Source of the DNA: Gracilariopsis chorda
Taxonomy: Eukaryota > Rhodophyta > Florideophyceae > Gracilariales > Gracilariaceae
Direction: 5' to 3'
DNA: 64,000 bases
NCBI GenBank assembly: GCA_003194525.1
Contig: NBIV01000012.1
Location: 496,001-560,000 of the forward strand
Both the position numbers and the translations under genes were made by a program. Positions 3,870 through 52,935 of this stretch are shown here, in pieces. Under the pieces are notes generated by a model. The model saw only the letters and a list, made by a program, of their open reading frames with translations. It searched no databases and was not told the DNA's origin. How positions within the stretch are numbered: position 1 is the stretch's first letter; each line of letters begins with the position of its first letter.

Positions 3870-4322
3870 TCATACGTTGAAGGATTCACCACAGCCGCAA
3901 GTTCCCTTGGCGTTGGGGTTATGGAAGACAAATTCCGAGACGAGATCATTATCAAGAAAGTCCATCTTAGTACCAACTATATGCATAAGCGCTCTTGGAT
4001 CAATATACACATCGGCGCCTTCTATCGAAACCTTTTCGTCAAACTTGGACCCTTCTTGTGCGTAATTCAGAGTGTATGCCATGCCATTGCAACCTCTGGT
4101 GCGCAGACCGATGCGTACACCAGCTGGTCTTGGGTTCTTCTGGCTCAGCAAGTATCTAATTCTTTCCGCCGCTGCGGGTGTAACTTCAAGTGCGGCTGGA
4201 GCCCGCCTTTGGGTACGACGCGCTGGCGCTGCTGAGACTGCTTCTGCGGATGTTGATAGATTGGGGTGCCGGGTGAGAACTCGATTTGCGAACTGGCGGG
4301 CGATAGACGTGAATCTGAGCAT
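3870..4322 (-). CDS. ISCA1: mitochondrial A-type iron-sulfur carrier (ISCA1/HesB family)
   Basis: A 150-residue protein. The A-type carrier domain covers about residues 44-150 and keeps the three metal-binding cysteines: Cys78 in RGCNG, and Cys142 and Cys144 in the C-terminal CGCGESF motif. Residues 1-40 are rich in Arg, Ser and Ala with almost no acidic residues, consistent with a mitochondrial presequence. In mitochondria the ISCA1/ISCA2 system makes [4Fe-4S] clusters for enzymes such as aconitase and lipoate synthase. The next gene, divergently transcribed, is aconitase, a client of this step. The length is normal for ISCA1. A plastid location cannot be fully excluded from the presequence alone. 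Confidence 0.9.
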   Translation of the reverse strand: MLRFTSIARQFANRVLTRHPNLSTSAEAVSAAPARRTQRRAPAALEVTPAAAERIRYLLSQKNPRPAGVRIGLRTRGCNGMAYTLNYAQEGSKFDEKVSIEGADVYIDPRALMHIVGTKMDFLDNDLVSEFVFHNPNAKGTCGCGESFNV

Positions 4323-5091
4323 GGTTCTGAGGAGGACGGGAGCATGAAGAAGTAGCTTTTCTCAGAACGAGCGCTAAGCAAAGAAGACACGTCTGTTAAG
4401 GAGTTACAAGTCGCGAACTGGGTGTGCATTGGAGATGCATCCTATTCGCTGGCATGGAGTTCTTCGCGTGTGGTAGCTGTGAGGCGGTTACGCAGGATAC
4501 TAGATGGCGCGACTTAATTAACTTGGTGGCGGATGAATTGATAGACCGAATAGCAGCGCAAGCAATGGTTGGTGCGCGCAAGGCCAAAACGTGATGCTGA
4601 TTGGACGGACTGCCCGACGCCACGTGACCAACGGTCGCCGTCATGCAGATTTCACATTTGAGTGTCCCATCGTAGTACTTGTCGCGAAACGATTCGTTTT
4701 TGGGGAGAGGAGAGGCCAATCGCGACGTGGCATTGCGCTCATCCGTGGGCCAATCCATTTTTGTTTCAGACCGGTCCACGCAGCTGAACAAAACAGGGGA
4801 TAGACAATTCCAGATGATGGAGACGCATGTGCCAAAGTGCTCGGGGCAATCAACGGAACTTTTGCGGACAGACATCGGCTAGTGCGCCCCCGCATGCCAC
4901 GCCGTTTCTCGCTCAACTCACGTGTACCACTTCAGCTCCGGGACTATATTGGTCGTCCGGGGAAGCCATCTCGCACTGCAAGCGGAGCCCGGGTGCTCAA
5001 CTCTCTCGCCGCATTCGTCTTGATTCCGAAAGGCATTCCCCGTTTCTCGTTTCATTCCTTTGTGAGCAATTCGTCTAACTTCCCACACAAG
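4323..5091. promoter_or_regulatory. divergent intergenic region, ISCA1 and aconitase
   Basis: A 769-bp spacer between two divergently transcribed start codons. It must hold both promoters and both 5-prime leaders. Overlapping frames of 60-159 codons on both strands have no protein-like features. No specific element is recognised. Confidence 0.5.
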
Positions 5092-24536: not shown

Positions 24537-26284
24537 TGCAAAGGCAGCGAGAAAGTTCGCAGCTTGGTATGGATCTGAGGTGATCAGCTGGTGAATCAGA
24601 TTCACCAGCACGAAGGCTTTGCATGTTCAGGTTTATCAGGTCCGTACAGTAGTAGTACGGTGTCCAAATTCAGAGTCCAGAAGACTTGTCACACGTTGAA
24701 ACGGTTCTGGATTGCACTCCGGAAAGGGCGATGCTCAAAACGAGAGAGTAGAAGGCTAACGCTAACCCTTACCCGTCATATTTACATCTTCTTCCGTGCT
24801 TGGTCTACCACGCCTTTGGAATCCGGATTCATATATGACGACAGGGTAAAATACTACACAAGATGTAGGACGACCACATAAGTCTCCTTTGTTAAGTACG
24901 GAGCTCTGAATATCCATGTTTCTTGCTGCACGAACCAAGCAACGTACGTTCCTCGTATCAGCCGGTTGTTTCCATTATACCCAGAAGACAGGTCAACATA
25001 GCTACTAAAAAGCAGTCTCTCGATAGGTGGCTGCTTGGTGTGGCGGGAGGAAGTGTCATTCCGACTTCAACATACGGAAACCGTATAAAGTAGTCCCTGT
25101 CTCGAAGGCGAAGTTCCCAAAGCAGACCAGGCCGCCGGCCCAAGCATCTCGCTGATTTGCATCAGCAGAAAGCTCGGCATACCATGGCAGGTAGATAGAT
25201 GCAATGTGCCCGAGGCACGAGGCTCGCATTCTCACGCATGATTCCTCATTATAGTGCTGTATAGCCCAGCCAGAAGCAAGTAAGCGTCACAACTGTAGAT
25301 TAGGAACCGCAGCCTTGGCTTTGACGCTCAGCCTACATCGTTCTCAAAATCGGCGGGCTCTCTTTCCACAAAACGGAAGGTTACGAAAAAACGGCGCACT
25401 CGCGACTCAATAAGATCGCCTAAACGGACCTTACGGAAGAGAGAAAAAAAAGTTTTGTGTGTGTTCAAAGATCGCTTGCGGTACTTTCATCATGGTCATA
25501 TGATGTCACCATAAGCAGGCTTACGCATACGTCCACAACTGTCTCTTATGAAAGCACTCTTCAGATACAGTGATCTCTTGCAGGTCATGCTGCTGTTGGA
25601 CATGTTTGAAGCGAAACGTTTTCTGTGTTTGCGATTGGGTTTACGTGGAATGGAGTCCCGCCTTCAATTGCGAGATCTTGATAAAGAATCTTCTTTCGCT
25701 GTTTTTTGTACAACTGATGAAAGCTCCTTTTCTTTTTGTACTAGCACGCAACCTTGGCTCAGTATAGATACCTGTTGACTCACGGCAAGCAACAGTTCTT
25801 GCCTGCACTGTTGTTCTTTACCGCAGGCATTTGAATTGTGTTCCGTTGTGTTAAGTGTTACGTTCACAGCTTTCAACACCTTTGAAACTGGAGGGTTCAA
25901 AAGCCCTCAAGAGTGGGAACAGAACGCCAAACAATATACCATTTGTGTCGAATTTAGTTATGTTGCTTTCCCAACGAATTGAACCAACTCAACGCGGACA
26001 TTGGCGCTCATCGTGATTTTGCAAGAAACAATTCAACACCCACCCACATCGCGTCGAAGAGTGACCAACTTCGGGGACAGGCTGTCCAAGGCCGAGACTA
26101 CAAGCGTTGTCGCGTCACAGGCGACGTGACGTGGAGAATTACATGCAGACTCTGTACTGCAGAGCGGGCGCTCTCCGCGCTACCCGGTTTCCATACAAAA
26201 CCAATTTAAAAGTCAGATCAAAAAGTTAGTGTAACCGATACATAGCACAAATCAGCGCACGTAATAAAACAGCGAGCACCTCAA
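24537..26284. other. 1.75 kb intergenic region
   Basis: No gene recognised. Frames of 61-90 codons on both strands lack motifs. One TAACCCTTA word lies near 24762. The region spans the rhodanese promoter and the 3-prime flank of the tweety-like gene. Confidence 0.45.
24587..24609. repeat. 23-bp perfect palindrome
   Basis: GCTGGTGAATC and GATTCACCAGC flank a single central A. It lies about 50 bp beyond the 24500-24536 hairpin, in the presumed promoter or leader of the rhodanese gene. Confidence 0.93.
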
Positions 26285-27760
26285 TTAGGCAGCATCGTGG
26301 GGCGCATCATCAACGCCTGAGTTCAACCTGCCCTCCCCAATTCCCCTAGTACCCCTCCAAACAATAAGACTCCTAGCAACCTGCATTCCAAACAAACTAG
26401 CAACACCGGCAACGCTTAGGCAAATCGCCAGTCCCAAAAACCCTACAAACAGTTCATATACACCTTGCACAGCCCCATGTCCCGCGGGGGAACAAGCAAC
26501 CCTCTCCAGTTTACCCGAAACCACAATTTGCATCGAGCAATTCAAAGCGCTTTCCACACGAGTGCCCGACCATAACGCCGTTTCCGCAACGCTTTCTGCT
26601 GATGTATTGAGAAGCATCTGAACGGTTTGTACGGCTAGAGAGCTTTGTAGTATTGAGCCGGCTGTCAGTTGAATGCGTTCTCGAACGTCTGTGGACGATT
26701 GAACGGGGCAGTCGAAGCCGGATTGTAGTAGAGCATTGGGTGCTGTTGACTGATTCCCCAGTAGCACTGCGCGGTAGTCGTGCAGCATAACACAAACGTC
26801 GGCAAGAGTTACACCCACACCCGCAGTAACGCCCACGCAGGCCCAGCAAAACATGACAGGCAAAACTATAAAGCAAAGATGTGCGAAGAAACGTATGATA
26901 CGACGTTGATTTTGCAGGGTGAACGCATCAACAAGAAACAGTAGCAGCGGTCCAGAAGCAATTAGTAGGATGACGGTTAACAAGATGATGTACACAAGTG
27001 TTACAGCACGTCTTACGACTACGAGAACATTGCCAATTGCAGTGACGAGTGTGTCCAGGCTTTGACGCAGCGGATTGAAGTTGGGGTAGTTTTGAAGGAT
27101 GTATTGATGCATAGCCGTCAGCGACCTGTCTCCAAACTCGGGCAAAAAATCGCTAAGAGGGTTTGTGGACAATGCTTCTGAGGGCTGAAAACTTCCAAGT
27201 CGCTTTTGAACGAACAGAGCAACATCAACAAACGAGAAGCCAGTAAGTGAAAGATGGTTTGTCAGACCCGCAATAAGGTCCAGGGCGTCATGTGAGGCGA
27301 ATTGCAGAGAGGCGTTGGCAAGCAAAGTGAGCGAGGTAAACGTGAAGATAAGAAAAAGGCAAAGCGAAGAAAACACACATTGTACAAGGGTAGCGGACTT
27401 TGATTTGGAGATTCGATTGATTCTTGCATCCGTTGAAGACTGTCGACAGGAGTACCGCACGACGAGATGAACGAGCATGTATAGCGTGAGAATGGCTGCG
27501 AAGAAGATTGGTAGCAGTGCTGTAAGCGCGACAGGAGACAGATATGAAAAGGAGAATTCAAAAGTATCAGAAGCTGAAGGCCAGCGCGGAACGGAACGGA
27601 AGAAGCCGACAGCGTGCGATGGTTGTACCGGAAGCGAATAGTTCACTCCGGGATAAAGCGACGTCATGACTGTGACCGCGGTACGGACGGAAGCATGGGG
27701 AGTGGCGGTGTGGAAGGCGAGGGGTGAGAAGAAATGGGGGGCCTTATGTTGGAGGGCCAC
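26285..27760 (-). CDS. tweety-like pentaspan membrane protein
   Basis: A 491-residue membrane protein with hydrophobic segments near residues 72-97, 125-148, 248-283, 293-315 and 438-465, and a long exoplasmic loop between the last two. Within that loop, LADVCVMLHDY, a later DCP, and paired cysteines with several N-glycosylation sequons (NQS, NTS, NCS) resemble the loop of tweety-family and plant tweety-related proteins. Animal tweety proteins sit in the plasma membrane and have been linked to anion conductance or lipid handling; function here is not known. The start could be Met1, or Met32 (MTSLYPGVNYS), because the first 31 residues are poorly structured. It follows QTRT2 on the same strand after only 47 bp. 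Confidence 0.6.
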   Translation of the reverse strand: MALQHKAPHFFSPLAFHTATPHASVRTAVTVMTSLYPGVNYSLPVQPSHAVGFFRSVPRWPSASDTFEFSFSYLSPVALTALLPIFFAAILTLYMLVHLVVRYSCRQSSTDARINRISKSKSATLVQCVFSSLCLFLIFTFTSLTLLANASLQFASHDALDLIAGLTNHLSLTGFSFVDVALFVQKRLGSFQPSEALSTNPLSDFLPEFGDRSLTAMHQYILQNYPNFNPLRQSLDTLVTAIGNVLVVVRRAVTLVYIILLTVILLIASGPLLLFLVDAFTLQNQRRIIRFFAHLCFIVLPVMFCWACVGVTAGVGVTLADVCVMLHDYRAVLLGNQSTAPNALLQSGFDCPVQSSTDVRERIQLTAGSILQSSLAVQTVQMLLNTSAESVAETALWSGTRVESALNCSMQIVVSGKLERVACSPAGHGAVQGVYELFVGFLGLAICLSVAGVASLFGMQVARSLIVWRGTRGIGEGRLNSGVDDAPHDAA

Positions 27761-27807
27761 GGCGCACAGCGCTTACAGACGGTGGCCGGTTGACGGAGGA
27801 CACGCGC

Positions 27808-28965
27808 TCAGTACGGACGCGTAGCGAAGCGTGCGGCGAACGAGTCCAATCGTTGATGGTCGACGGCTTCGCGAAGCGCGTGGAACCAGCACAAGAACTG
27901 CCACAAGTTATGCGCGGCGAGCAGCGACACGCCGCTCATCTCGCGAACCTCCAACAAATGCCGCAAGTACCCCACAGACACCGCTCCCCCCTTGCAACAC
28001 GCACACCCGCAATCTCTCGCGATCGGCTCGGTGCAAAGCGTGTTCTGCCGTTCGCGAATCGCCAGTGGCCGCTTCGCGCTGGTCAGTTGTAGCGCGAGCC
28101 CGTTTTCCGCGGCCTCAAACGGGTAGTCGCTTTCCACTATATCCACCCCCGCCGCGACGGCGCGGAGCACCTCCCAGGGCGCCCCGCTTCCGCCCAGGAG
28201 TAGCACGGGCAGGCCTGTTCCGTGCACCGCCCGAGTAACTGCTTCCACGCACTTGAAACGTGTTTCGGCGCTTTCCCCGGCGTAGAGACCTTCTATCGCG
28301 AACGCTGCCGCATTGCAAAGTGTTGCCGCACGGGCTGCGCCCTCTGCTACACGGCGTCGCGTCGACGGACAATCTCCGCCTTGAACCGCGATTACAACAC
28401 CGTTAACACCTCCCTCCTGCGCACAGCGAATGAAAGACTTCTGCAACTTCTCGTTCCGATTAGCTCGACGTTGTAGAACACGCTCGTTAACAGAGTTATA
28501 AAGTGGCATTCCATCACTCAGACTCACACAAAAGTCCGTCTTCATAGCTACAGCAAGGTCCGCAACATCCTTGCATCCAATCCTCAACCGCTGTGATCCA
28601 TCACACACAAAACTCACAACTTCCTTCTTCCCTGCCGTATCGCTCAAGAACCCGTCTGTACCCACCGTTCGCAACGTTAGAAAGAGTATCACATCCTGTG
28701 AACAGGTTGCGCTCTTCGCACTTAGATTGAGATGACGGAATAGGTCTGTGCCTCGTAAGTTATTGTTGCTGTTGAGTGTATGCCAATCACTAATTGGAAG
28801 CGAGTGAAGTCTTGTCGCTCCTTGGGGAGTTGCCCGCTGCGCGAGGGGGACGGGCAGATACGGTAGTTGGCCTTTTTGTGTTACAAGTAAAGGCGCTGGA
28901 GTTTGCTGACGGAGCGACCCACTCCGGATCTCGTGCACTCGTGCCCCGCTCTCCTTCACACTCAT
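27808..28965 (-). CDS. QTRT2: queuine tRNA-ribosyltransferase accessory subunit 2
   Basis: A 385-residue TGT-family protein. In eukaryotes QTRT2 pairs with the catalytic QTRT1 to insert queuine at the wobble position of tRNAs with GUN anticodons. The start matches the family (SGARVHEIRSG, then TPAPLLVTQKG). The TIM-barrel core includes VVIAVQGGD and FAIEGLYAGES. The structural zinc site is complete: Cys319, Cys321, Cys324 and His352. The overall pattern is closer to the QTRT2 branch than to the catalytic subunit (LSDGMPLYN, GVDIVESDYPFE). Red algae can salvage or obtain queuine, so the gene is expected. GC content is noticeably higher here than in neighbouring genes. Confidence 0.9.
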   Translation of the reverse strand: MSVKESGARVHEIRSGSLRQQTPAPLLVTQKGQLPYLPVPLAQRATPQGATRLHSLPISDWHTLNSNNNLRGTDLFRHLNLSAKSATCSQDVILFLTLRTVGTDGFLSDTAGKKEVVSFVCDGSQRLRIGCKDVADLAVAMKTDFCVSLSDGMPLYNSVNERVLQRRANRNEKLQKSFIRCAQEGGVNGVVIAVQGGDCPSTRRRVAEGAARAATLCNAAAFAIEGLYAGESAETRFKCVEAVTRAVHGTGLPVLLLGGSGAPWEVLRAVAAGVDIVESDYPFEAAENGLALQLTSAKRPLAIRERQNTLCTEPIARDCGCACCKGGAVSVGYLRHLLEVREMSGVSLLAAHNLWQFLCWFHALREAVDHQRLDSFAARFATRPY

Positions 28966-29374
28966 CGCTAAGCCTGCTCATCGCCGGTTCCTCACCAACT
29001 CGGCGGACGCCCAGCAAAGCCTGTCCCGTCCTATCTATCGCGGCCAATCCACCACAGTAGAGCACAGCCCCTTCACGAATGTGCGCCGCGACAGCACACA
29101 CACGTACGTACAGTATTCTAAACATGATCACTTTTCTTCCTCCCGGAGCCAAATTCTGTCGACATGCTTCCCAACGCATTGTTGTGAAAGCATCATACCA
29201 TTGCAATCCCGTCGCGTTTATCGTGACAGGCGTCGCCAGCGCGACGAACCAGCCCGATTCCCATGCCTATACTGAATCTCACCTCCCGTCTTTAACTCGG
29301 CCGCCCCCTCCACATGCCGCACGCCACCCCGTTCATCGTCGACCGTGTCCCGCGGTCCCGCTCCGGCAGCTGTC
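28966..29374. promoter_or_regulatory. divergent region, QTRT2 and PMT
   Basis: A 409-bp GC-rich spacer between divergent start codons. Overlapping open frames are composition artefacts, including a 138-codon frame antisense to the PMT promoter side. Confidence 0.5.
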
Positions 29375-31228
29375 ATGACGACCCCACGCCACAAGTTCAT
29401 CGCCTCCCTCATCACCATCCGTCTCCATCTTCGCCGATTCTACCGTTCTTGCTCGTACCCACCGCCACTGCCTCCCCTATCCCAGGCCCCCTCCCCGCGA
29501 TCTCATGGGCGGATCCCCGCACCGCTTCCCGCACGCCCACGTGATTCCCACCCGAAACAAAACATTCTCCCGCCACTACTATTCATACTCGCTCTTCTTC
29601 CCCGTCTGTATCGCATTTCTTACCCCCGAGTGTAGTGTTTGACGAGGTTCATTTTCTCCGCTTCACATCTGGCTACTACAACCGAAAGTACTTTTTTGAC
29701 ATTCACCCTCCGCTCGGTAAGCTCATTTTTGCACTCATTACCTATCTCTTTTGCGGAGCACCTCATCTGCAGTACGAGCTGAACGGCGAGGACTTTGGGG
29801 ACCAATCCTATATCCCGTTAAGGGTTACAAGTGCGTTATTCGGTGCGGCAGTGTCTCCGATAACATTTCTCATATGTCGAACACTTGGCTTGTCACTACC
29901 AGCCAGTTTACTTCCCGCCTTCATACAAGCCTTCGACCATCTTTCAGTTATTGAAGGCCGACTTGTTCTGTGCGATGCACAGCTGATGTTCTTCATGGCA
30001 CTCTGTCTGTTATGTGCGTTGCGGATGTGGCGTGCACCGCCTTATGCCAGAACGCCCTGGGTGATCGCTACTGCCGTTACGGGTGCTGCTGCACTCAGTG
30101 TAAAGTGGACCGCCCTTGTCACACCTGCACTTGTGGCTATTGTGTCTCTCACCGGTCACCCGTTTACGAAGAGACGATTAGCATCGAACCATATCGTACT
30201 GGCTGCGATCACAGCGCTCGCCTTGTATACTGCTTGCTTCTGGCTCCACTTTCGTATTTTGATTTACAGTGGTATGGGAGATCCATTTATGAAGCTCTCC
30301 TTTCAACGAACGTTGATCGGTGGAAAGAACTATTCACCAAATGCTATTTCGGATGGTTTCCTGCATAACTTTGTCTTTCTTAACAAACAGATGTACATCG
30401 CCAACAAGGGGATCAAAGCCCGTCACCGCTGGGAGAGCAGATGGTGGCAATGGATGATTAATATGAGAGGTTTGCTCTACTATAATGAACTTAACGCTGA
30501 TAACAAAATGTTGAACGAAAAGATCTACCTCATCATCAACCCGGTTGTCACGGCGGTTACTCTGGCGTCGCTCCTTGTTTTCGTGGGTATTTGTGTCGCT
30601 GTGTTCATACGCAAACGTGATCAGTCAGAGAAGCCTACACGAAGCCTCAACTTGCAGGCTTTCATCGCTCGTGGTTCTTTCTTTCTGGCGGCGTACGTGC
30701 TCAACTTACTACCATATCTCGGTAAGCAAAAACCCTCCCGTTTCCTTCACCACTGTCACGTGACAAGAATATCGCGATCCCATCCCCCGTGAGAAACATT
30801 GCTGCTGCGCATCAAGCCATTATTCGTTTGTCGAGCTGACAGTTTTCGTTTTCTTTCCTTTTTTTCGCTCACCCGATTTTTCACGGGGTTTGTAGAAGTA
30901 GCACGGTGTACCTTCTTGTACCACTACTGGCCGCCGTTATTTTATGCACTTTTGGCAACTGCGAACATGGTGAATGGAATTCCATCTCGTCGCTTTCAGG
31001 TTTACGTATCGGCGGGCATCTGCATTTTGGTGTTTGCTGCGTTCTTGTATTGGAGTCCTTGGATATACGCTACTCCGATGTCCAAGGAGGCTCATGCTCG
31101 GAGGCGACTGTTCGGTAAGCATTGGCTATAGTGCGAATGTTTGACCAACGCCTTTGTGCATCTCTGTAGAAGGGGAATGGCGCTTGAATTCTAACTGCGG
31201 GTTATATGACCATCCCTTGTGTGAGTAA
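29375..31228 (+). CDS. PMT: protein O-mannosyltransferase (GT39) without MIR domains, frameshifted near the N-terminus
   Basis: An ER multispan enzyme that moves mannose from dolichyl-phosphate to Ser/Thr. The first membrane helix (LLFILALLPRLYRISYP) and the catalytic acidic motif VVFDEVHF lie in different frames. Adding one C to the CCCCC run at 29623-29627 would rejoin them as YPPSVVFDEVHF, the family consensus. Downstream motifs are YFFDIHPPLGKL, IEGRLVLCDAQL, LSVKWTAL and WESRWWQW. Intron 30722-30895 (GTAAGC...GTAG) restores LPYLEVARCTFLYHYWPP. A second intron, 31115-31169, with the same border words gives the tail FEGEWRLNSNC; without splicing the protein ends at 31131. The three lumenal MIR domains of fungal and animal PMTs are missing. 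Confidence 0.82.
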
Positions 31229-45207: not shown

Positions 45208-46226
45208 TGAAGTGGTGCTGGAATTGGAAGATGACGGAGATTTAATGATAAAAAGGGAGCTCTTGCCAAGGAATGGCCCTCACCACTTTGCTGAACTGGG
45301 AACCCTTTCGTGCTTATTGGAAGAAAGTACTCAAATGGCATACGTGGCAGCCCAAAGCTGTTACAGCACAACAAGCAAGGGTCGCCGTGGAAGCTGCCGC
45401 AGTTTATGGACACAAGCATCCCACATCTGTTCTGCGGCTATGTTTTGTCGTCGGAGTTCGTGATCACATTTCTCTTCTAGGCTGCACCACATCATGTCGT
45501 ATGATACGATACGTACGGACTTGTCTGGTTTGGCATAGCAAAACATGAACATATGCAAGACAGCCATATCATCTGGCAGTACGATCATTGCATGATGCCG
45601 GAGAACGTGTTTAATCCTGAAAGCATAGTTTCGACGGCAAACCGTTCAAGAGTTTGCATGAAAACGGTACTGTGTTGTTTCTTGGTTCCTTTCAATATGT
45701 TTCTGAAACTCTTCAATAGCACGTTTGCAGAATGGTGTGTTCCCCGGCAAGCTGTCTTCTGAAACTTCCGAGACCTTCTTCATCACATAGTGTACGTGTA
45801 TCATTGGCACACAAACCATAATCCCTTTTCCAAGTAGAGCTTACGGAGCGAGAAAGAAAAATTTGTAATCCTCTCTTCCTCACCCCGTAAGCTCTACTCA
45901 AATTTGCACATTCTATGCGTCTTCAAACACGTGTTATACAGCACTCTGGTGGCTTCTGGGGATATCTCTGCCGAGACATCCCTAGCTGCGATAACTTTTG
46001 TGCAAGCGAAGAATTTCAACGGTATGAGATCTCACCTCATGGATGATCGAATGCAAGACTACTTGAACCCCCCATCGTGACGTGCGGTGTGAAGATGAAG
46101 AGCATCTGAAGCGGATGCGTGTCTACAGACTGAAGCTTTGCTTCCAGCAAGCCCTGGTTTAAGTGCACTCTTTTCCTCCTCTTCTGGTTGCTCTTTGAAT
46201 TCGACTCGCCTCTTCTTCAACCAAGG
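45208..46226. other. 1 kb intergenic region with an inverted repeat
   Basis: No confident gene. Overlapping frames at 45053-45548 (plus) and 45204-45588 (minus) have no motifs. The inverted repeat at 45833-45898 is listed separately. The right part is the presumed promoter of the membrane-protein gene. Confidence 0.45.
45833..45898. repeat. 66-bp inverted repeat with 14-bp arms
   Basis: AGTAGAGCTTACGG (45833-45846) and its exact reverse complement (45885-45898) flank a 38-nt spacer. It could be a small foldback element. Confidence 0.88.
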
Positions 46227-47075
46227 ATGGGTAAAGTCAACCCTTGGCTTGCGCTTGGGTTTCCAATAAGCATTATTCTAGGTTACACAGCGTATTCTGG
46301 CGCTACTCGACAAGACCTCTATCGGCTTGAGACCCCATCGTACGCAGCGCAAGGAATAGGTCAGGATATATCGAATCTCTTCATAGTTCTACCGGCCTTC
46401 ACTGCCAGTTTGATACTATCTTGGCGAAAATCGCTTCGCGCTTTGCTTGTGCACACTGGAGTGCTTGCTTACCTAGTTTATTCTTATTCTATGTACGCCA
46501 TCACCTTGCATTTCAACTCTTTATTCTTAATGTACGTGTCGTGTTTTGGGCTGTCGTTCTATTCAATGGTAGGAATATTGGTGAACATAGACTCAGGAGC
46601 TTTGCACACATCAATCACAGGCAGGTCCTCACACAAATGGTTCCGGATTGGTCTTGCATCCTTGTTCATATTAGTGGCGGCCTTGTTTTACGTGATGTGG
46701 CTCAGCGAGATCATTGCACACTTGCAGACTGGAACCACGCCTCATAGCATCGCAGAAACAGGATTACCATCGAATATGGTGCATGTGCTCGACATAGGAG
46801 TTGTACTGCCGCTATTTGTGCTTACGGCTCTGTGGCTACTCTTGGATTCCCGTTTTGGGTACTTGTTCGCGCCTGTTGTTTTAAACTTCACCCTGTGCAT
46901 GTCAGTTGCTCTTACGAGTATGGTATATTTCATGTATGTCAAGGGAGTGACAGAAACTGTTGCTCCATGCCTGTTGTTTGTGGTTCTGTTTGTCCTTAAT
47001 CTGGCTTTTGATATTAAGTATTTGAGCTTGCTTTCAGGACACACACTTGAGCTGCAAGAAGATAAGCAAGAATAA
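46227..47075 (+). CDS. polytopic membrane protein of bacterial-like family
   Basis: A 282-residue integral membrane protein with about eight hydrophobic segments: starting near residue 6, then around 46, 72, 98, 145, 190, 220 and 250 (for example LFILVAALFYVMWL and LLFVVLFVLNLAFDI). The central YSYSMYAITLHFNSLFLMYV resembles a conserved block in uncharacterised bacterial membrane proteins that I recall from several phyla, so an origin by gene transfer is possible. No catalytic motif or transport signature is visible. The start is the ATG at 46227 (MGKVNPWLALGFPISIILGY), since the frame before it opens only with a TTG. No targeting peptide is obvious. Confidence 0.72.
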   Translation: MGKVNPWLALGFPISIILGYTAYSGATRQDLYRLETPSYAAQGIGQDISNLFIVLPAFTASLILSWRKSLRALLVHTGVLAYLVYSYSMYAITLHFNSLFLMYVSCFGLSFYSMVGILVNIDSGALHTSITGRSSHKWFRIGLASLFILVAALFYVMWLSEIIAHLQTGTTPHSIAETGLPSNMVHVLDIGVVLPLFVLTALWLLLDSRFGYLFAPVVLNFTLCMSVALTSMVYFMYVKGVTETVAPCLLFVVLFVLNLAFDIKYLSLLSGHTLELQEDKQE

Positions 47076-48873: not shown

Positions 48874-50154
48874 ATGCTACCTTCAGAACATTCGCAAGGG
48901 TGGCCGACAAGCGCCTGGAAGCCACACACAAGCGCAGCATTCGTTGCGTGTCCATCGATACGTTTTGGCTCCTGCCGAAGATTCGATGCACACCCCACGA
49001 AGCATTCTAAGACTGTTTACACAGTTCGCCCAGCGAACCGGTTCCGCAATCGTCAGGCTATGCGACTCTCGATGACTGCAGATGAAGAAGTTGCACGACA
49101 CACTGCGCGTCCCATAACGTCGTCTGTACAGGGACTTGTCCGCCCGAAGCATGTGACGAATTTCTCTATTCCATACCAAGATCTTGTTATACGTGAATGG
49201 AAGAAAAATGATAGAATGGCCTGTGTGGAACTTATTGGATCCGTTCTTTCTGAGTACGGTTTAGAATGGGACCCCATTACTGCTGATAGAGACGTTGTTG
49301 AGGTGGAACAAGCGTATAGCAAGGGAGAATTTTGGGTTGTGGAGGACATAACCACAGCGACTGTTGTTGGTACAGGAGCGTTTTATGAAGTGCCACATCG
49401 AGGGAATGGTGTGGTTGAGATTAGGAAAATGTATTTACACAAGAGTGTGCGGGGACAGGGGTTGGGTTCTTTTCTGTTGTGTGCGCTTGAACAACGTGCC
49501 CTTCAACTGGGTTACAGTTCTGCGATTGTTGAGACAGCACATGTTTTGAAGGAGGCTTGTGCTCTGTACAATTGTCGTGGATATAAGGCATCTACAGGGC
49601 TGGAGACCGAGAGATGTGACTTGGTACTGGAAAAACCATTGCTTCTACCAGAATCAAACTTGAGTCACGACTTGCTGGAAGTAATTGACATGACTCGAGG
49701 GTGGACTGTAACGTATGCGTCCAAGGAACAAGTCAACCGAAACCGCCTTCTGTTTAGAGCAGTTGCGGTGCTTGTCGAGACAGGGAACAAGATTGTCGTC
49801 CACAGACGGTCTTACAAGAAAGCATCCTTCCCCGGTAGGATGGCTGCATTAGTCACGGGCTGTATCGATTGGAATGAGGATCCTCTCACAGCAGCAAAGC
49901 GGGAGGTCTTGGAAGAGGTTGGATTGTCGAATCTTGACTTTTGCGTTCCGTTCGCTCCATTCGTGGCCGATGGTGAAGGGACTGGATACAGAATCCAATT
50001 TCATCCGTTCATTGCAAGTGGGGACTTCGCCGAGGATCAAATAGTTTGTGACCCGACAGAAGTTGACTCTGCGGAACTGATGACTCGAGAGCAGATAATT
50101 GAGGCTGGCATTGGAGGATCGTTGTGGCGGGAGTTTCGTAGCCATGGACTTTAG
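48874..50154 (+). CDS. GNAT acetyltransferase fused to a Nudix hydrolase, probably organelle-targeted
   Basis: A 426-residue single-exon protein with two catalytic domains. Residues 1-70 are rich in Ser, Arg and His without acidic residues early on, as in transit peptides; Met63 is an alternative start. The GNAT domain spans about 100-256, with the acetyl-CoA loop RGQGLG at 193-198 preceded by GVVEIRKMYLHKSV. The Nudix domain spans about 285-426 and its box (329-351) is a perfect G-x5-E-x7-REUxEExGU: GCIDWNEDPLTAAKREVLEE followed by VGL. The Nudix part resembles the YfcD/IPP-isomerase-like branch (HRRSYKKASFPGRMAALVTG before the box). Substrates are unknown. Both active-site motifs are intact, so both activities are plausible. 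Confidence 0.88.
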   Translation: MLPSEHSQGWPTSAWKPHTSAAFVACPSIRFGSCRRFDAHPTKHSKTVYTVRPANRFRNRQAMRLSMTADEEVARHTARPITSSVQGLVRPKHVTNFSIPYQDLVIREWKKNDRMACVELIGSVLSEYGLEWDPITADRDVVEVEQAYSKGEFWVVEDITTATVVGTGAFYEVPHRGNGVVEIRKMYLHKSVRGQGLGSFLLCALEQRALQLGYSSAIVETAHVLKEACALYNCRGYKASTGLETERCDLVLEKPLLLPESNLSHDLLEVIDMTRGWTVTYASKEQVNRNRLLFRAVAVLVETGNKIVVHRRSYKKASFPGRMAALVTGCIDWNEDPLTAAKREVLEEVGLSNLDFCVPFAPFVADGEGTGYRIQFHPFIASGDFAEDQIVCDPTEVDSAELMTREQIIEAGIGGSLWREFRSHGL

Positions 50155-50360: not shown

Positions 50361-51416
50361 TTATACCGCAGCACCGAGTGCCTTTATCTTGGCTTCCAAA
50401 GCTGCAATCTGAGTCTTCGCGTCCGCAATTTCCTTTTGGGCATAACCAGTAATCATCTGTTCCATAGAGGTTTCCCTCTTCATATCAGCAAATTCTTGCT
50501 TAGTCAAGAACATGAAGCTGCCTGGTACTATTTCGTAGCGAGTTCGAGCTTCAGGATTCTCCTGCACTTTGACGGTCTCCATCGGTCTTCCGATGTCAAT
50601 ATCTGGTCGGGTAGGAATAGCCTTCTTCACGGAGACATGTGAAGGATGATAATTCATGGCAATGACAGATACCAGCTTTGATGCAATTCCAGCCCCATCA
50701 AGAGAAAGCACGTGATTCGGGTTCTCAGTGCCTATCTGACGAGCACGACCTGTCAGAGACTTGTCGGTTGTGCCAGGGAACGAAGCCAGCGTACACATTC
50801 TATTGAACTCATCAGCAGTTTGGTATGTGCCCTTGAATCTCATGTAAGGTACAAAATCGTCTCCGAACGCGTGGTCGTATTCCTCCGAGTCGATGTAGGA
50901 ATTAATCTCGGCTTCAAAGCCTTCGTTCGCTATTCGTTGCACATGTTCGGAAAGCTCCTTTTGAGAGTTCGGGCCGCGGCCGAGCAAATGCTTAAAGTTG
51001 AGCTCTACGGCTCTGTAGGGGCCGCAACACTCAAAGAAACGTCGACGATACGTGCCTGAGAGCGCAACACCGCGAACAAATTCGCGAAGCGTGATTTGTC
51101 CCGCGCGATACATAGACTCCGCGACGTAAGCTTCAGCGCGCTCAGACTCCATGACATAGGCATTGCCAAAAACCTGTTTCCAGACCATATAACATACTGT
51201 GTCCTTATCCTCTACACCACTGATAGATGTTGTTGGAGTGTAAATCAAGTTCTGCAGAGTGATACCATACTCCCCAGTCATGTGAAGCGTTGCCGATCGA
51301 GAACCGCTTCGACTAGGGGCTCTTTTGGGTGAAACGGATACATTTCGCAAACTACGCAAGCCTCCTTGTAGCCGGGTGGAAGGAAAAAGAGGAGAGTGAG
51401 GTACAAACGCACTCAT
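50361..51416 (-). CDS. nuclear-encoded phycobilisome linker polypeptide
   Basis: A 351-residue plastid protein. Residues 1-48 are Ser/Arg-rich with little acid and fit a transit peptide. A phycobilisome linker (pfam00427-type) domain covers about 60-190, with VCYMVWKQVFGNAYVMESER, ITLREFVRGVALSGTYRRRF, FKHLLGRGPNSQKEL and INSYIDSEEYDHAFGDDFVP in the usual order. A less ordered part follows to about 290. A short C-terminal coiled coil (IADAKTQIAALEAKIKAL) is unusual for rod linkers and could bind another linker or the membrane. It would join phycobiliprotein hexamers into rods or to the core. Red algae encode most rod linkers in the nucleus, so the location fits. The exact linker type is uncertain. 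Confidence 0.93.
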   Translation of the reverse strand: MSAFVPHSPLFPSTRLQGGLRSLRNVSVSPKRAPSRSGSRSATLHMTGEYGITLQNLIYTPTTSISGVEDKDTVCYMVWKQVFGNAYVMESERAEAYVAESMYRAGQITLREFVRGVALSGTYRRRFFECCGPYRAVELNFKHLLGRGPNSQKELSEHVQRIANEGFEAEINSYIDSEEYDHAFGDDFVPYMRFKGTYQTADEFNRMCTLASFPGTTDKSLTGRARQIGTENPNHVLSLDGAGIASKLVSVIAMNYHPSHVSVKKAIPTRPDIDIGRPMETVKVQENPEARTRYEIVPGSFMFLTKQEFADMKRETSMEQMITGYAQKEIADAKTQIAALEAKIKALGAAV

Positions 51417-52116
51417 GTTGACTGCGCAGATGGTGCAACGGACGGGAAGACTTCGACTCGAGAATCTACCACTTGATTATGTTCCCTGAGAGAACACAGA
51501 AGGTTGAAGAATGTGGATAAAGGGTTATCACCAGAGCAGCTAAAATAAGCAAGGATAGCTGTGTACGTTCAGGAAGGTTTTTGAAAGACCAATGTGGGGA
51601 TGAGCTTGTGGACGAGGGATGGTCATTTAGCGTGGCACGAGCGTGGGAATACATCAGATATCCTGTAGGGTTTCGTGGCGATCTTGCGCTCAAACCGTGT
51701 GCAAAACTTTCGAGATTATTTGAGCTCGTTCCGTATCTACAACGGTACCCTTTGTACCCTTCGTACATATCTCCGGCGCTGATCCTAAATTTTCCTGGAG
51801 CTATTTAGAAATAATATTATTCCAAAAAATTTAACATACATAAAAAATTCACACTATTGTACAGGGTTCCAAGGATACTGTACGGATACCAGGGGTATTA
51901 GGGATACCGGAGGTAACCTTCGCTACCCCGAAGCAGCCTTCCCTGTCTGAGAGGGAGACAAACATCGACGTGGACAATGCACGGGAAAGAACCGCTTCAG
52001 AACGGGCGTGGCGCTGAACAAGTGAAGCTGGGTCTCGTCCAAATACCAGAGCTGCATGACGTTCGAACGACGACTCTGAACAATTGACGTAGTAGCACTT
52101 GGAACGCCTTCGTACC
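51417..52116. promoter_or_regulatory. divergent region, linker and YJU2, with repeated short words
   Basis: A 700-bp spacer between divergent start codons. It contains TAAAGGGTTA (51518-51527), AACGGTACC (about 51741-51749), an AT-rich stretch with AATAATATTATT (51810-51821), and several GGATAC(C)-type words at 51870-51920. Short frames here are not convincing. Confidence 0.5.
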
Positions 52117-52935
52117 ATGGGTGAGCGAAAAGTGCAGGCAAAGTACTATCCACCGGACTTTGATCCGTCTCGCCTTCCGCGGATCAAAAAGAAACGTCAA
52201 AACGAAGATGCAGTTCGTTTTATGCTCCCCATGTCCGTCCGATGCGAGTCCTGTGGAGAGTTCATGGGAACCGGCCTAAAGTTCAACGCAAAAAAGTCCG
52301 ATAGCGGCGAGAACTATCTTGGAATCCGCATTTTCCGGTTCTCAATGAAATGCAAATCATGTCCGGCGACTTTTACTATAAAAACAGATCCAAAGAACAG
52401 TGACTACACATGCGAATCTGGTGTACGACGCAACTATGAGCCATGGAAAGAGAAAGAAAAGATTCAGCAAGAAAGCAAAGAAGAACGAGAACGTCAAGAT
52501 CAGGACTCCATGCAGGCCCTAGAAAATCGGACTGTTGACGCGAAAAAAGAACTAGAAGATCTTGACGTCCTCAACGAACTCAAATCAGCAAACGCTCAAA
52601 GAGCATCCATTACTGTTGACGATATTCTGGAGAAGAGCAGAGCTCTCCAGGATAGTGCTGAAAGAGAAGCTGAAGGACTGCTCAAGAATCAGGCAAAGGT
52701 AATCTTCCGAAACAGAAAACAAGCTTCTCCTACCAGAGCACAACCAAGAGAGCCATTTAAAGCAAAAGCAAGTGACAGCAAAGAGTCTTCTACCAGTTCT
52801 AGCGTTCTCAAGAACGTCAACTTAACTTTGAAGGTCAAGAAGAAGATCAAAAAGACTTATTCAAACCCATCAGCGACCAAAGAGCCTACATTGGCAGGAC
52901 TAGCGCAGTATTCTAGTTCAAGCGAATCGGAGTAG
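52117..52935 (+). CDS. YJU2: splicing factor YJU2 (CWC16/CCDC94 family)
   Basis: A 272-residue spliceosome protein that promotes the first catalytic step after Prp2 action. The N-terminus MGERKVQAKYYPPDFDPSRL is nearly invariant in the family. A zinc-binding module follows with Cys43/Cys46 (CESC) and Cys79/Cys82 (CKSC), and FTIKTDPKNSDYTCESGVRR. The middle is a charged helical region (residues 105-190), and the tail is basic and Ser-rich. The first frame codon upstream is a TTG, so the ATG at 52117 is the start. Its presence agrees with introns elsewhere in the window. Confidence 0.95.
   Translation: MGERKVQAKYYPPDFDPSRLPRIKKKRQNEDAVRFMLPMSVRCESCGEFMGTGLKFNAKKSDSGENYLGIRIFRFSMKCKSCPATFTIKTDPKNSDYTCESGVRRNYEPWKEKEKIQQESKEERERQDQDSMQALENRTVDAKKELEDLDVLNELKSANAQRASITVDDILEKSRALQDSAEREAEGLLKNQAKVIFRNRKQASPTRAQPREPFKAKASDSKESSTSSSVLKNVNLTLKVKKKIKKTYSNPSATKEPTLAGLAQYSSSSESE

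Follow-up and report, generated by a model that had tools for sequence, protein, structure and literature searches.

A single open frame in the 64,000-nucleotide stretch of DNA analysed here (hereafter the window) raises the question of whether a GNAT acetyltransferase and a Nudix hydrolase are joined in one gene, and from where the two halves came and what their product may do. The fused frame is confirmed, as it runs for 440 codons without a stop, when the longest open frames in 20 mononucleotide shuffles of the window never exceeded 221 codons, and the two domains follow each other in this one frame with a short linker between them. The Pfam profile Acetyltransf_1 matches residues 142–237 (E 2.6e-12; score 47.5 bits, cut-off 20.7), while the profile NUDIX matches residues 295–408 (E 3.1e-13; score 50.3 bits, cut-off 21.1). 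The first half belongs to the GNAT superfamily, as it combines the profile match with the acetyl-CoA loop (R/Q)xxGx(G/A), in which R193, G196 and G198 are invariant across an alignment of 35 sequences, and the second half belongs to the Nudix superfamily, as it combines the profile match with a full Nudix box, whose consensus is G-x5-E-x7-REUxEExGU. An earlier note on this DNA had described one frame with an intact GNAT loop and an intact Nudix box, and this description stands, both matches lying over the Pfam cut-offs and both motifs being exact; its further suggestion, that acetylation may be coupled with the clearance of a nucleotide or isoprenoid-type pyrophosphate, is hypothetical. The coordinates of the features are collected in the table below.

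Features of the fusion gene, its neighbours and an example of a cyanobacterial gene pair (window positions, except for the pair on L101)
Feature	Position	Strand	Remarks
Fusion gene frame	48874 (ATG) to 50154 (stop)	+	single open frame, 426 aa
N-terminal leader, putative plastid transit peptide	48874..49059	+	residues 1–62; Ser/Arg-rich, acid-poor; start codon uncertain
AAFVACPS, resembling the AFV/AFI motif that other presumed plastid proteins of the genome have close to their N-terminus	48934..48957	+	residues 21–28
MRLSMTAD, like the leader ends of presumed plastid proteins	49060..49083	+	residues 63–70; possible internal start at M63 or M67
GNAT acetyltransferase domain, cyanobacterial type by similarity	49168..49647	+	residues about 99–258
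Acetyl-CoA (pyrophosphate-binding) loop RGQGLG	49450..49467	+	residues 193–198
Nudix hydrolase domain, N-terminal extension included, YfcD/IDI-like	49660..50151	+	residues 263–426
Nudix box GCIDWNEDPLTAAKREVLEEVGL	49858..49926	+	residues 329–351; every consensus position matched exactly
Phycobilisome linker, plastid-type leader MSAFVP	50361–51416	-	PF00427, E 8e-42
Saf4/Yju2 protein	52099–52935		E 2.8e-63
Example pair, MiaE-family gene and GNAT	L101:3608–4216 and 4294–4791		

To judge from its surroundings, the fusion gene is nuclear-encoded, because its neighbours encode a Saf4/Yju2 protein and a leader-bearing phycobilisome linker, its contig is 595 kb long (in an assembly of 91.3 Mb and 1081 contigs), and no match to the RuBisCO large subunit was found in the assembly. 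The linker gene is convergent with the fusion gene at a distance of about 200 bases, and the host would be a red alga or some other phycobilisome-bearing alga. The window also contains a light-harvesting-like frame with the leader MAFVASSS (2548–2925, + strand; PF00504, 37.5 bits) and a 295-aa open frame that has the look of a membrane protein and gives no Pfam match at E <= 0.1 (46188–47075, + strand). The region 26001–30000 is strongly asymmetric between the strands, one 2-kb block having an AT skew of 0.22 and the next a GC skew of -0.22.

Three methionines (M1, M63 and M67) are candidates for the start of the fusion protein. The leader described in the earlier note as Ser/Arg-rich is indeed so, as residues 1–62 include 14 S+R and 10 K+R against 2 D+E. 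Similar N-termini occur in the same genome, where four of nine light-harvesting-like stretches (L159, L167, L168 and L171) carry AFV or AFI in their first six residues, followed by a basic or Ser-rich run to a methionine; another (L160) is loosely alike, and the remaining four are without such a leader, some of them being later exons. Two further proteins begin alike, a Nudix protein (L023) of contig 35 with MAFVP and the phycobilisome linker next to the fusion gene with MSAFVP. In the fusion protein the AAFVACPS motif is not N-terminal but lies 20 residues downstream of the first ATG, and the two candidate spliced starts that would move AFV towards the N-terminus are both weak. The codon-usage score of residues 1–62 is -0.09, below that of the lowest coding stretch tested (0.11) and inside the range of random stretches of the window, which have a mean of -0.19 and a 90th percentile of 0.08. 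These properties would be accounted for by a cytosolic bifunctional enzyme starting at M63 or M67, both of which precede the folded part, with the upstream part untranslated, the codon usage there not being coding-like and the plastid-type motif lying away from the first ATG; however, the succession of AFV, a basic acid-poor run and an RLSM end resembles the presumed plastid leaders of the genome, and the frame stays open throughout, so that a cytosolic enzyme is considered unlikely. Import of the fusion protein into the plastid is, from its sequence, likely. An organellar and probably plastid location, which the earlier note had raised as a possibility, has become likelier in view of the cyanobacterial character of the GNAT half and of the leader motifs, which recur in leaders of light-harvesting-like frames of the genome, while the displacement of AFV and the codon usage of the leader count against it.

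The assignment of the GNAT half to a cyanobacterial type is based on similarity. Its peptide signature, written as DNA and compared with a collection of 84,980 prokaryote species (one genome each), is present at no fewer than 117 prokaryote loci, which among the matches listed comprise 110 from cyanobacteria (109 Cyanobacteriota by taxonomy and one by title), six from Saprospiraceae and one from Gracilibacteria. All of the 117 listed loci give a GNAT match, with a median open frame of 170 aa, a few of the frames being truncated where the available sequence ends. In the 124 loci examined, which include seven further cyanobacterial loci, at most 52 residues lie behind the GNAT match, the identity to the window GNAT ranges from 35 to 56% (median 50%), and no relatives of the window Nudix half were found in the surrounding DNA at E <= 0.01. 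The stand-alone cyanobacterial GNAT (about 170 aa), for whose function no description was found in the literature searched, is thus like the window GNAT in sequence (up to 56% identity) and in its invariant residues, but differs from the fusion protein in lacking the Nudix half. Samples of 291 cyanobacterial and 198 Bacteroidota genomes, each containing its centre genome, itself a match, were also searched for matches to the window GNAT: 76 of the cyanobacteria match at E <= 1e-5 (67 of these at <= 1e-30) and the other 215 give no match at this threshold, while 33 of the Bacteroidota match, with 2e-20 as their lowest E-value. A quickly built tree with 72 GNAT rows (73 given), made from about half of the GNAT rows and chosen outgroups, separates the Saprospiraceae and places the window sequence nearest to an Acaryochloris protein, but does not resolve its exact branch; descent from the plastid ancestor, as against a later transfer, is not proven, because the window GNAT sits on a long branch (1.65).

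None of the 291 cyanobacterial genomes gives a match to the Nudix half at E <= 1e-5; as a control, the same query finds a Streptomyces plasmid Nudix protein at 5e-13, and all three records in the plasmid collection that match at E <= 1e-3 are from Streptomyces. The absent matches and this one control point to a source that is probably other than cyanobacteria. By sequence, the closest Nudix protein of solved structure is E. coli YfcD (PDB 2fkb; E 4.4e-8 over 83 residues), whose likeness to the window Nudix extends to the stretch preceding the Nudix fold but which is stand-alone, unlike the fused window Nudix; the score of the latter is 43 bits, under the curated YfcD cut-off of 152 bits (NF011922). 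The ADP-ribose pyrophosphatases rank after YfcD among the solved relatives, with weak E-values. Type 1 isopentenyl-diphosphate isomerase was rejected (15 against 105.8 bits for TIGR02150 and 27.1 against 127 bits for NF002995), and a CoA-pyrophosphatase appears less likely, the fusion protein having FPGR and no FPGG, the latter being within the CoA-type Nudix signature. The Nudix half is distantly like isopentenyl-diphosphate isomerase and falls far under the curated cut-offs; the isoprenoid-type substrate suggested earlier is hypothetical. The fold comparison covers residues 101–261, and the Nudix half is without a confident model because the alignment had no relatives of it.

The fusion itself was seen nowhere else in the material surveyed. 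For the genome, 27 GNAT and 15 Nudix matches are listed, which are lower bounds, as the search was made exon by exon and an intron-split fusion could escape it; no second frame with both domains is among them, and the whole protein as a query found no second copy of the gene in the genome. A 400-aa Nudix frame on contig 223 was rejected as a second fusion, being without a GNAT match among the matches listed. A cyanobacterial frame (G050) given as 337 aa was rejected as a bacterial fusion, as the fetched sequence has 187 aa and no Nudix match. Viral relatives were found neither with peptide patterns made from the full protein and from the Nudix half nor with the GNAT signature, and the phage protein families gave general acetyltransferase and MutT/Nudix matches only. 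No description of a GNAT–Nudix fusion was found in the literature searched, outside of which lies the 2016 list of symbiogenetic genes (S-genes), and none occurs in the excerpts of PMC11450739 and PMC7824862.

The bacterial survey bears on the alternative that the complete fusion entered the alga horizontally, from a bacterium in which the GNAT–Nudix protein existed beforehand, and not through plastid endosymbiosis. Bacterial genes are known to reach algal nuclei, and the sampling with the full protein comprised cyanobacteria, Bacteroidota, and plasmid and phage records, whereas Nudix relatives were seen in Actinomycetota and Pseudomonadota, two groups beyond these whole-genome samples. Nevertheless, for the 291 cyanobacteria and 198 Bacteroidota none of the matches listed has an open frame that continues into the Nudix half, the 72,556 plasmid and 50,697 phage records have no place at which 80% of the protein is covered, and the 117 listed loci with the GNAT signature have no more than those 52 residues behind the GNAT match. 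An acquisition as a whole is hence held to be very unlikely.

The reading that we favour, and regard as rather probable, is that the fusion gene is an S-gene, in which a GNAT from the plastid ancestor has been fused to a probably non-cyanobacterial Nudix domain, with a product that is probably sent to the plastid. The GNAT gene would most likely have come from the cyanobacterium that gave rise to the plastid, and a single frame would now unite it with a Nudix hydrolase of YfcD/IDI type, the source of which was probably non-cyanobacterial, the product of the fusion then probably being returned to the plastid. The name S-genes reportedly goes back to Meheust et al. in 2016. With such genes the fusion gene shares its nature as a nuclear chimera of a cyanobacterial or plastid-type domain with another domain, together with signs of plastid targeting, and by similarity the GNAT half would be the cyanobacterial or plastid-type part. 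According to the excerpted text of PMC5851275, S-genes of photosynthetic eukaryotes combine domains that stem from the plastid with others of different origin, and an excerpt of PMC5462543 describes plastid proteins of chimeric make-up in ochrophytes. The class is therefore already known, and the GNAT–Nudix pair is a candidate new case of it. Chimeric plastid genes reveal how the host has rebuilt the enzymes of its endosymbiont, and the parts of the present fusion are separable, as stand-alone cyanobacterial relatives of the GNAT survive, so that the effect of the added Nudix half is directly measurable.

As for its activity, the fusion protein is likely a plastid enzyme that would acetylate a small amine or a protein and is joined to a pyrophosphohydrolase, its substrates and location being putative. 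Nudix proteins with the full motif should cleave a nucleoside-diphosphate-X bond, and the Nudix half would cut such a bond by means of a metal ion located at its REVLEE motif, the fusion holding both steps at one place and in one amount. It may be that only one of the joined halves is active and that its partner has a role in binding or regulation, as is frequent among fused metabolic enzymes; with every position of the Nudix box and the invariant GNAT positions of the alignment intact, this appears quite unlikely. For the GNAT half of the putative bifunctional enzyme, a point of comparison is E. coli YjgM, in which the motifs EIxKMY, RGxG and ET...LKEA have the same spacing as in the window GNAT (31% identity). 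In Salmonella this protein, now named OatA, is an enzyme that N-acetylates O-acetylserine (PMC6277577, in excerpt), and acetylated protein bands also appeared when E. coli YjgM was overexpressed (excerpt of PMC6199490), so that, by analogy, small-amine and protein substrates are both possible for the algal GNAT, although OatA/YjgM is an enterobacterial stand-alone protein more distant from it than the cyanobacterial proteins are. In the available part of PMC4680915, YfcD is used as a canonical nucleotide-sugar hydrolase, and a figure legend there gives these enzymes as ineffective on protein-bound ADP-ribose.

The gene neighbourhood of the cyanobacterial GNAT may offer an indication of its role. 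An upstream gene of one family on the same strand accompanies 64 of the 117 listed GNAT loci, the distance being no more than 300 bases in 53 cases, and these 53 close pairs cover nine named cyanobacterial orders among the matches listed. The one member tested is a MiaE by Pfam (PF06175; 270.5 bits against 27) and lies under the NCBIfam MiaE cut-off (135.6 against 320 bits), for which reason the upstream protein is here called MiaE-family and not a proven MiaE. No MiaE-family gene was found at the other 53 of the 117 listed loci, 14 of which have less than 700 bases upstream and 39 of which have room for it, the latter including loci on complete Picosynechococcus and Calothrix chromosomes. The known activity of MiaE is the hydroxylation of isopentenyl-adenosine in tRNA, and the adjacency suggests a shared role of the two proteins, perhaps in tRNA modification. 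A search for MiaE in the alga gave no match, though the family control was also silent in 14 of 14 genomes. It is conceivable, yet extremely unlikely, that the cyanobacterial GNAT handles prenylated adenosine, a role proposed because its gene stands directly behind a MiaE-family gene in nine cyanobacterial orders, and that the algal fusion of this GNAT with an IDI-like Nudix hydrolase acetylates and dephosphorylates modified-tRNA or cytokinin-type nucleotide products in the plastid; if true, this would be a plastid pathway not described before. That a MiaE-family gene and this GNAT recur as a pair in cyanobacteria is in itself a testable hint to the role of this GNAT family.
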